Positions 4,938-7,978 of a DNA stretch of 9,027 nt are shown here, piece by piece; the first letter of the stretch is position 1, and every line of letters begins with the position of its first letter. This DNA is from Bacilli bacterium (GTDB taxonomy: Bacteria > Bacillota_I > Bacilli_A > RF39 > UBA660): contig CAAHEM010000088.1 in the NCBI GenBank assembly GCA_900772435.1, positions 1-9,027 on the forward strand, given 5' to 3'. The position numbers were made by a program, and so were the translations under genes. The notes under the pieces are model-generated. The model was not told the DNA's origin and did no database searches. It saw only the letters and a program-made list of their open reading frames with translations.

Positions 4938-6176
4938 ATGAAAGGAAAAGCCGAAAAAATAGATGCAATAACTAAGTTTGCAAAAGAACAATTTCAAAAA
5001 GGGAATGCTACTGTTCAATTGAAGAATTGTAGAGAACTTTCAAAGTTTTTAGTAACTAATAAAATTTCGTTAAATGTTGATGATGTTGAAAATGTTGTTA
5101 TTGATAGTACTGAATTATCTGATATGCTTGCATCTGTAGCAACTATGGAAAATGCATATGATTTAGTAAATAGCAGTACAATTAGTGCTATGCTAACAGC
5201 ATATTGCATGATGACAGGAGCACAAGTTAAAGAAACAGAAGAAGCACAAACTAAAGAAGAAGTTATAGCATATGATTATGATACAAGTATAACACCAGAA
5301 AATGAAAGATTATATTTAAATGATATAAGAGGAACACTATTAACTCAAGAAGAAGAAATGGAACTTGGAAGACTTATTTCTGAAGGCAATGAAGAAGCTA
5401 AAAATGAATTAGTAGAACATAATTTAAGATTAGTTGTTTCAAATGCAAAACATTATGCAGGTAGAGGTGTAGCACTTCTTGATTTAATTCAAGAAGGAAA
5501 TCTAGGTTTAATAAAAGCTGCTGAAAAATTTGATTATACAAAAGGATATAGATTTAGTACTTACGCTACATGGTGGATTCGTCAAGCAATCACAAGATAT
5601 ATTGCAGATCAATCAAGAACTATTAGAGTACCTGTTCATCTACATGAAACAGCGCTTAAAGTTAAAAGAACTATAGAAAATTATGAAAAAGAGCATGGAG
5701 AAACACCATCAGTTGAAATGATTGCTGATATACTTGGAATGTCAGTAGAAAAAGTAAAATCAAGTCAAAAAATATTAGCTGGAACTACTGTTTCATTATC
5801 ACAAGCAATAAAAAATGGTGAAGATTCAGATGAAAGCGAACTTGGTGACTTTATTGAAGATCCTGAAACTAAAGGTAAAGATTTCTCAGATGGAGTATTT
5901 TATGAACAATTTAGAGATGCAGTATTTAATGGCGATGTATTAACTGATCGTGAAAAAATGGTAATAGCATGTAGATATGGTTATGTTGATGGTAAAACAC
6001 ATACACTAGAAGAAGTCGGAAAAAAATTAAATGTAACTCGTGAGAGAGTTAGACAAATCGAAGCAAAAGCATTAAGAAAATTAAGAAATAATAGACAAAT
6101 CAAAGCATTTAATCCTAATGATAATACACCTCATATGAAATTAACACTTAACAATAGTAATAAAAGAGCAAATTAA
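4938..6176 (+). CDS. sigA: Primary RNA polymerase sigma factor (sigma-A / RpoD)
   Basis: This 412-residue housekeeping sigma factor directs RNA polymerase to -10/-35 promoters. Region 1.2 is at about 124-150 ([15 protein letters not shown]). Region 2 at about 155-230 has [31 protein letters not shown] with the melting pair Trp212-Trp213, and [11 protein letters not shown]. Region 3 is at 235-315 with the finger LGDFIEDPE. Region 4 is at about 325-390 with the helix-turn-helix [28 protein letters not shown]. Residues 1-120 do not show a recognisable region 1.1 and are unusual. Region 1.2 is one residue shorter than the common IGKVPLLT pattern. GAGGGGTG precedes the ATG. The frequent upstream partner dnaG is not present. 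It has its own promoter and terminator, and a degenerate relative follows directly. Confidence 0.96.
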
Positions 6177-6190
6177 GTTTGCTCTTTTAT
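6160..6190 (+). terminator. Intrinsic terminator of sigA
   Basis: A perfect 13-bp stem (6160-6172 with 6178-6190) closes a 5-nt TTAAG loop that contains the start of the TAA stop codon. The last codons of sigA (Lys-Arg-Ala-Asn) form the left arm. The stem ends in a T-rich run (TTTTATTATA). Confidence 0.82.
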
Positions 6191-6200
6191 TATACCAAAA

Positions 6201-6229
6201 TTGACATTCTGTATCATTTGTGATATAAT
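6201..6229 (+). promoter_or_regulatory. Perfect-consensus sigma-A promoter of the sigma-like gene
   Basis: TTGACA (6201-6206), a 17-nt spacer and TATAAT (6224-6229), with the extended motif TGA directly before the -10. This is the only promoter in the window with both hexamers perfect. The predicted start near A6236 gives a leader of about 16 nt. Confidence 0.9.
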
Positions 6230-6240
6230 ACATTTAATTA

Positions 6241-6255
6241 ATGGGGGCTATATGA
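6241..6255 (+). other. Four-codon mini-ORF overlapping the sigma-like start
   Basis: ATG GGG GCT ATA TGA reads Met-Gly-Ala-Ile-stop and shares ATGA with the start codon at 6252. It has no ribosome binding site of its own. Its G-run (6243-6247) doubles as the weak Shine-Dalgarno of the main gene, so it may simply be that site. Confidence 0.2.
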
Positions 6256-7886
6256 AAAAAGTAGAAGAAATGAAATATTATTTAAAGGATATAGAAGGTT
6301 ATGAAATACCTTTAATTGCTGAAGAAAAAGATTTATTTAGAAGAATAAAAAATAATGATAAAAATGCACTTGATGAATTAGTGAGAAGATATTCTATGGA
6401 AGTAATAGGTGCTTCAGAAGAAATATTTTCTTATCTAAAAGGTGCCCAAATTGAAGATTTAATTCAAGAAGGATACATTGGCTTAGTAAGAGCTATTAAT
6501 ATATATACTAACTGTGACTCAAAAACAAGATTCACTTTTGTAGCAAGAAAAGAAATAAGAAAATCTATTATAAAATATATAAAATCTAATATAGAATTAA
6601 TGTCTAATATAACAAATGATGACTTCAAAAAAGAAGTATTATCTACACTTACAGAAGAACAAAGTCTAGAATTAGAAGAAAGATCAAATAAAAAAGTTGT
6701 ATCATTAGAAACATTATTATCAAATAGTGATATAGAAGAAAATGGTTTTTCAAGACCAAAATATTTAGAAGACGCTGTAACAAACAAAGTGGCTAACGAC
6801 GAATTATTTAAAAGAATAGAAGAATCAGAAAATCTATCTGATAAAGAAAAACTTATATTATTAGATTATTTTAGATTACAAGGAACAGTTGAAGATCCAC
6901 TTGAAGAAATCGCAAGAATAAGAGAAGCAAGAAAAGCTTATATTGAAACATTATTCTATGTTGGCGGAGAAAAACTAATACAAGAAATTCGTTTTGATGA
7001 AAATACTACAGAAATTGTAAATGAAAGAAAAAAACAAAAGCAAAGAGAACAACATAGCGATAAAATAGAAATAATTAATTTAGAATCAGAAGAACTAAAT
7101 TATGATGAGTTAGAATTAGAACGTCTTAAAAAAGAAATTGAAATTTTAGAAAGTAGAAGAAACGCACTATTAAGCAGCCCAAATATTGACTCAGACGCAA
7201 GAGAAATCGGATATAAAAAATTATCAGAAGAACTAGAAAGCAAAAGAGCAAAAGTACTTAAAATAGTAAATAGAATAGATGAATTAAAAAGAAGAAAAGT
7301 TCAAAGAGAAGAAAAATATAAAAAAAGATCAACTTTAAAAAAAGATTCAATATATGATGAAAGACCAGATTTAGATACTTTAACATCAGACAATAAGCCA
7401 AGACAATTCACATATTATTTAGTAGAACCAGATCCAGAATTAGTAAAAGAACTAGAAAGTGCAATATTAGAAGAAAGAACACAGCTAACTAAAGTTATAG
7501 GAATAAGACAAAGATTGCAACAAATAATAGCTAATGTGAGTAGTTTTACTTCATATGAACAATATACAAGTGAAAAGAAAAAACAAGAAGCTTTATATGA
7601 AGAAGCAGCAAATTTATTAGAAGAGAAAAAGTCAAAAGTAAGAACCATAAGAAGAGAAGTAGAACTATCTAAATTGCCAAAAGAGTCAAAAGATTATCTT
7701 TCATATGGCGAACAAATAGAAGAGTTACAAACTAAAAAGAAAGATACATTTTCAAATAGATTAAGAAGAGATATAGATGCTCAAATTGAAATGTTAAAAC
7801 AACAAAGACGAGATGCAAAAAGTTTTCTAGCAAACGCAGGTATATATGGATATACACAAAAAGTGTATAGAATGCCTAGATGTTAA
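6252..7886 (+). CDS. Degenerate sigma-70-like protein with long coiled-coil C-terminus
   Basis: This 544-residue protein has no exact family recognised. Residues 9-45 match sigma region 1.2 (YYLKDIEGYEIPLIAEEKDL). Residues 66-110 match region 2: IEDLIQEGYIGLVRAINIY, then RFTFVARKEIRKSIIKYI, where SigA has [18 protein letters not shown], so the melting pair Trp-Trp is Lys-Glu. Residues 150-180 resemble the region 3.2 linker (VVSLETLL...), with regions 3.0-3.1 apparently missing. Residues 195-248 resemble region 4 (LSDKEKLILLDYF...LEEIARIREARKAYIE), but the recognition helix is not recognisable. Residues about 255-525 are rich in Lys, Glu and Arg and look like two coiled coils (about 280-355 and 395-525). 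The tail is FLANAGIYGYTQKVYRMPRC. No signal peptide or membrane segment is seen. An in-frame TTG at 6201 is the -35 box itself, so the ATG at 6252 is the start. It probably arose from a sigma paralogue and may bind RNA polymerase without opening promoters; this is inference. Confidence 0.8.
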   Translation: MKKVEEMKYYLKDIEGYEIPLIAEEKDLFRRIKNNDKNALDELVRRYSMEVIGASEEIFSYLKGAQIEDLIQEGYIGLVRAINIYTNCDSKTRFTFVARKEIRKSIIKYIKSNIELMSNITNDDFKKEVLSTLTEEQSLELEERSNKKVVSLETLLSNSDIEENGFSRPKYLEDAVTNKVANDELFKRIEESENLSDKEKLILLDYFRLQGTVEDPLEEIARIREARKAYIETLFYVGGEKLIQEIRFDENTTEIVNERKKQKQREQHSDKIEIINLESEELNYDELELERLKKEIEILESRRNALLSSPNIDSDAREIGYKKLSEELESKRAKVLKIVNRIDELKRRKVQREEKYKKRSTLKKDSIYDERPDLDTLTSDNKPRQFTYYLVEPDPELVKELESAILEERTQLTKVIGIRQRLQQIIANVSSFTSYEQYTSEKKKQEALYEEAANLLEEKKSKVRTIRREVELSKLPKESKDYLSYGEQIEELQTKKKDTFSNRLRRDIDAQIEMLKQQRRDAKSFLANAGIYGYTQKVYRMPRC

Positions 7887-7954: not shown

Positions 7955-7978
7955 AGAGAACTAAAATAGTTCTCTTTT
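7955..7978 (+). terminator. Intrinsic terminator of the sigma-like gene
   Basis: AGAGAACTA (7955-7963) pairs perfectly with TAGTTCTCT (7967-7975) across a minimal AAA loop (or 8 bp with a 5-nt loop), followed by TTTCTTGTT. It stands about 68 nt after the stop codon, so the mRNA would have an AU-rich 3' untranslated region. Confidence 0.78.

Follow-up and report, generated by a model that had tools for sequence, protein, structure and literature searches.

A predicted sigma-family protein extended by a long, predicted helical tail and encoded next to sigA in a Bacilli bacterium of the RF39 lineage

The contig CAAHEM010000088.1 of a Bacilli bacterium (assembly GCA_900772435.1; RF39, UBA660) was analysed over 9,027 nucleotides, in the following referred to as the window. 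It has a GC content of 23–31% (600-base windows) and carries, in this order, polA (start cut), a gene for a HIGH nucleotidyltransferase, a gene for a Cof-type HAD hydrolase, rpmF, ppa, sigA, a sigma-factor-like gene and lepA (end cut), a gene content that points to a Bacillota-type bacterium. The sigma-factor-like gene (6252..7886, + strand), which is the subject of this study, was recognised from the list of open reading frames (ORFs) and by homologue search; it encodes 544 amino acids plus stop and starts 75 bases past the sigA stop (6176). The ATG at 6252 is the better start codon, since the TTG of an alternative longer frame (6201) falls on the first base of a promoter −35 element; the last base of the stop codon is 7886. 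A GGGGG sequence four bases before the ATG (6243..6247, + strand) is the likely ribosome-binding site, as inferred from the sequence. The preceding sigA gene (4938..6176, + strand) encodes a housekeeping sigma factor of 412 amino acids, in which the Pfam regions 1.2, 2, 3 and 4 of Sigma70 all score above their cut-offs. Its top NCBIfam model is RpoD (6.2e-97), with a score below the model's own cut-off.

Upstream of the sigma-like gene lies a consensus promoter (6201..6229, + strand) with the arrangement TTGACA-17-TATAAT and a TG one base before the −10 element, matching in 12 of 12 positions. It is the sole site in the window with at least 11 matches. As a control the whole window was shuffled 60 times with dinucleotides preserved, and both strands of these shuffles yielded one 12/12 site and 68 sites of at least 11 matches in total. 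A hairpin across the sigA stop codon (6158..6192) was classed by the scan as terminator-like on the − strand but not on the + strand, while a terminator-like hairpin between the sigma-like gene and lepA (7955..7975, + strand) was listed on both strands. Having its own consensus promoter, the sigma-like gene need not belong to the sigA transcript; according to promoter and hairpins it probably has a transcript of its own, made by the housekeeping holoenzyme. With the 12/12 promoter and homologues at 98, 91, 50 and 50% identity, the ORF looks like a real gene.

The N-terminal part of the encoded protein resembles sigma factors. BLASTP against the neighbouring SigA aligned residues 8–110 with residues 124–222 (32 of 103 identical, 31%; E 3e-8), and the NCBIfam SigH model (TIGR02859) matched residues 24–113 with 1.3e-8, so that the likeness to SigA through region 1.2 and sigma2, which had been noticed by eye, was borne out. 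In Pfam, Sigma70_r2 reached an E value of 0.0016, below its curated cut-off, while Sigma70_r1_2, Sigma70_r3 and Sigma70_r4 gave no listed match to the window protein at E values of up to 10. The Pfam search proposed along with the original prediction thus recovered sigma2 below cut-off but neither region 1.2 nor region 4. Region 1.2 was accordingly assigned from the BLASTP alignment and from a profile-profile comparison; in the latter, the family of the sigma-like protein aligned with the SigA clade over residues 7–237 (E 9.6e-9, a single comparison). A sigma2 homologous to known factors, recognised by BLASTP, the SigH model, the general ECF/sigma70 model TIGR02937 and the profile-profile alignment, links the protein to the sigma70 family in the broad sense. 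It does not classify as SigH (34.5 bits against a curated cut-off of 294.8), and the bits for TIGR02937 (16.2 for the window protein, 22.6 for P0002, 35.0 for P0004 and 38.2 for P0005, the latter three being homologues) all stay below the cut-off of 42.9.

Within this part a region 1.2-like block comprises residues 8–24 (6273..6323, + strand; BLASTP to SigA and profile-profile alignment). It is followed by regions 2.1–2.2 with the core-binding surface (residues 25–85; 6324..6506, + strand; SigH model and identity to P0005) and by regions 2.3–2.4, in which alignment and residue comparison showed the −10-facing residues to be replaced (residues 86–113; 6507..6590, + strand). A model predicted with SigA rows in the alignment gave a block pLDDT of 56–86 across residues 21–110. 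Between sigma2 and the sigma4-like segment lie about 70 residues, about half of which make up a conserved 3.2-linker-like block (residues 149–182; 6696..6797, + strand; 23 of 34 residues identical to P0005), which was placed by profile-profile alignment to SigA. The sigma4-like segment itself (residues 183–246; 6798..6989, + strand) is degenerate in the window lineage and was recognised by TIGR02937 in P0004 and P0005, where this model spans residues 38–245 under its cut-off (1e-8 and 1.1e-9, respectively). When the family profile was aligned with that of the SigA clade, VVSLETLLS paired with TVSLSQAIK at the 3.2 linker and LSDKEKLIL with LTDREKMVI at region 4.1.

Residues 247–544 form a C-terminal extension (298 residues; 6990..7883, + strand), delimited by composition, predicted model and conserved blocks. 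With 20% D/E and 21% K/R and a prediction of long helices (block pLDDT ~73–93 over residues 281–350 and 391–540, low between), it matches the charged helix of about 295 residues that had been described from the sequence. The tail shares 104 of 293 aligned residues with P0005 (sum of segments), ranging from 0 to 63% by segment. Despite this low overall identity the blocks RPDLDTLT, KSxVRxIRREVE and VYRMP are retained, which suggests that the tail may have specific partners. The tail alone had no match to PHROG at E 0.1, its best Pfam hit was DUF7904 (E 0.067, under the cut-off), and fold searches returned generic helical hairpins only, within the stated background. Matches of P0004 and P0005 to PHROG 351 that reach into the tail were set aside, with SigA ending at profile position 734.

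Few relatives were found. A search with the whole protein retrieved five proteins at E ≤ 1e-3 out of 8000 scored candidates, and residues 1–215 retrieved four out of 2013; as these searches depend on shared words, remoter relatives may be missed. P0001 and P0002 are 98 and 91% identical to the sigma-like protein, P0004 and P0005 both 50%. The fifth protein, P0003 (451 amino acids, on a contig of 1422 bases), was found by the whole-protein search only. It shares just the tail (99% over 55% of the query), which near residue 248 is fused to another N-terminus that had no Pfam match at E 0.01. P0003 is probably an assembly chimera, a domain swap being the alternative; it was part of the first family alignment and was dropped from the second and from everything built on the second. 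Scans of genome contigs with the family alignment and with an alignment of the SigA N-terminus gave no confirmed hit, which with two peptide patterns each is weak evidence of absence. Likewise, none was confirmed in viral contigs scanned with SigA, the sigma-like ORF and two alignments (A2 and A3). Among the matches listed from the open-licence PMC literature (titles and abstract starts), no description of the protein was found. Taken together, the gene is, as far as sequence comparison can tell, a lineage-restricted member of the sigma family whose helical tail matches none of the curated families searched.

Conservation within the family is uneven. Between the window protein and P0005, 21 of 24 residues are identical in residues 1–24, 33 of 38 in region 2.1 and 23 of 23 in region 2.2, compared to 18 of 28 (64%) in regions 2.3–2.4, 15 of 32 in 4.1 and 16 of 32 (50%) in 4.2. 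P0004 differs from the window protein by one residue in 2.2 (96%). With narrower region borders, cross-lineage pairs show 96–100% identity in 2.2, 71–76% in 2.3–2.4 and 47–53% in 4.2. The equivalents of D403, Q406 and E407 (E. coli numbering) are retained in all four family rows. At the positions of W433 and W434 the family has K and E. This pattern supports in part the original prediction that core-binding parts were kept and DNA-facing ones lost. Against it, two SigH proteins about equally far apart (L001/L003, with a core identity of 63%) give 91, 76 and 61% for 2.2, 2.3–2.4 and 4.2, and SigH rows likewise lack W433 and W434. Pairs were tallied without P0001 and without pairs of at least 97% core identity. 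Region 4.2 lies at least 40 points below 2.2 in 4 of 6 family pairs and in none of the pairs of the SigA clade (0/347), wider SigA (0/10) and SigH (0/28). For regions 2.3–2.4 a drop of at least 25 points was found in 1 of 6 family pairs, again in none of the SigA clade (0/347) and wider SigA (0/10), but in 4 of 28 SigH pairs. Only the drop in 4.2 therefore appears to stand out, on thin evidence, since the family pairs amount to one independent contrast.

It had also been proposed that the gene arose by an old tandem duplication of sigA. In a tree of 25 rows built on region 1.2 and sigma2 (5 of the 28 SigA rows P0006–P0033, with P0034–P0036 unused and the 98% copy P0001 left out), the family joins SigH (support 89/76, not strong), apart from SigA. 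Forcing the family together with the SigA clade of the neighbour was rejected (p-AU 0.0089), and the same held after four long rows had been taken out (0.0144) and after region 1.2 had been dropped as well (0.0010). Forcing it with all group-1-like rows was rejected less strongly (0.028). A tandem copy is thus disfavoured, the family not coming out as the sister of its own lineage's SigA in these trees. It is disfavoured rather than excluded, because the family stem is long (about 1.4–1.7 changes per column) and long branches may attract a copy that evolves fast. Furthermore, region 1.2 is said in the excerpt of PMC10575876 to exist in groups I and II only and partly in SigI, so that the region 1.2-like block points against an origin outside SigA.

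The protein was compared with several known types. The SigH and ECF models are its best NCBIfam matches, the sigma2 block around DLIQEGxIGL is similar by eye to that of SigH, and the seven SigH rows compared (190–219 residues) look, judging from their length, as if they leave little space for a sigma3 domain, as in the sigma-like protein, although for SigH of B. subtilis the table of a review gives sigma2, sigma3 and sigma4 (PMC10141391). Unlike SigH, the window protein has a region 1.2-like block, a weak sigma4, about 298 extra residues and no aromatic residue at the Y430 position, and it scores far below the SigH cut-off. Like its neighbour SigA it has region 1.2 and sigma2, yet it differs by the missing sigma3 match and by lacking equivalents of W433/W434 and Y430. 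Comparable are ECF41, ECF42 and ECF238, which combine sigma2 and sigma4 with a tail thought to be regulatory, but the tails described in passages of a review (PMC8999054) are SnoaL-like, TPR-rich or Cys-rich, whereas the tail found here has no curated family above cut-off. According to that review, more ECF groups with extensions remain unstudied. The original prediction was right about the missing regions 3.0–3.1 insofar as Sigma70_r3 had no Pfam match in the window protein. This absence is not by itself a mark of a non-initiating protein or a peculiarity, since Group IV (ECF) factors have sigma2 and sigma4 only and SigI, with part of region 1.2 present, lacks sigma3 (excerpt of PMC10575876).

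As the best reading, held with moderate confidence, we regard the protein as a lineage-restricted alternative sigma factor, a two-domain SigH/ECF-like form that kept region 1.2 and is controlled by its long helical tail. The conserved 3.2-like block and the sigma4 trace in the homologues appear to favour such an initiating factor. It would be produced by the SigA holoenzyme, bind the beta' clamp via 2.1–2.2, thread its 3.2 linker and read its own, fast-changing promoter set via 2.4 and 4.2, while the tail may hold or switch it, in the way suggested for ECF groups whose extensions are regulatory. Several observations weigh against this. No profile matched sigma4 in the window protein alone, and the sigma4 stretch of P0005 by itself gave a weak PF04545 match (E 0.011), exceeded by the unrelated PF03847 (E 0.0031). 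The likeness that had been claimed through the 3.2 linker and region 4 is borne out for the two aligned blocks; as a domain, sigma4 was traced by profile in the homologues P0004 and P0005. Sigma4 was poorly modelled in two predictions (block pLDDT 31–56 and 34–58 over residues 181–250), and the helix-turn-helix of 4.2 in the window protein is without several consensus residues, a pattern that the P0005 row keeps better. Y430 stacks with the flipped −11A (PMC4496690); its equivalent is V or L in four of four family rows, compared to aromatic residues in 20 and His in 1 of 21 other sigma rows. Finally, closeness to SigH is not uniform: in a sequence comparison with solved structures the family profile ranked a SigA at the top (E 1.8e-4) and SigH in third place (0.0014).

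An alternative is a regulator or decoy that would take the place of sigma2 on the beta' clamp without opening promoters, and so reduce or divert transcription by SigA, with the tail as a scaffold, the role suggested by the original prediction. The nearly invariant 2.2 next to drifting 2.3–2.4 and 4.2, the replaced Y430, W433 and W434 and the consensus promoter all agree with it. We consider it rather unlikely in view of the single independent contrast, the SigH rows that behave similarly in 2.3–2.4 and at W433/W434, the conserved 3.2-like block and the sigma4 trace. Still somewhat more speculative is a built-in competitor or scaffold, in which a sigma-derived protein, expressed next to sigA from its consensus promoter, would hold the core sigma2 site, open no promoters and set the amount of free core in this lineage. 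Improbable in our view is a SigI-like layout, in which sigma2 and a partial region 1.2 without sigma3 are followed by a C-terminal part contacting upstream DNA in a manner other than sigma4. The order of parts and the unusual C-terminal part are as in SigI, whose C-terminal domain is described in the excerpt of PMC10575876 as having no sequence homology to sigma4, but the window protein differs by its long helical tail, for which full-model fold searches gave only generic helical matches, and by the trace of sigma4 that P0004 and P0005 show. The NCBIfam matches of five members up to E 10 include no SigI model, which we take to be part of that library. Least probable of all is a decaying alternative sigma factor that lost its role: sigma4 and tail are divergent and relatives few, but 544 codons are open, close relatives are 91–98% identical over the full length, 2.2 is nearly invariant and tail blocks are conserved. 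Sigma-family proteins are known chiefly as initiators, and a family with a fixed core-binding surface and drifting promoter-reading parts would offer a direct way to ask whether sigma folds can be reused as polymerase regulators. Even as an initiator, the protein would be a new sigma factor from a little-sampled lineage, with a helical tail that had no match among the curated families searched.

Mobile elements were searched as well. The sigma-like ORF had no match among phages; among plasmids it matched four records through sigma2 (best E 1e-7 over residues 2–117), three of them annotated as sigma factors and the fourth without a feature. On an Alkaliphilus plasmid (L002, 2389–3486) a SigA-like gene is immediately followed by another sigma-like gene, which carries His at the Y430 position and also includes a region 1.2-like block. 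P0005 matched four phage records (E 6e-3 to 4e-2), and of the three examined, one holds a phage sigma gene and the other two hold sigma genes that look bacterial. The latter lie in unverified 'Bacteriophage sp.' records, where by eye a primase-like frame stands beside rpoD (L018, 1–2313) and a SigH-like gene has a phosphoglucosamine-mutase-like frame as its neighbour (L017, 81–2160); both are probably bacterial contamination.

In the neighbouring SigA, about 120 residues ahead of region 1.2 (window 4938–5300) are without a Pfam match. Residues 1–150 of SigA used as query retrieved 30 proteins from 196 candidates, and this N-terminal part looks lineage-specific.
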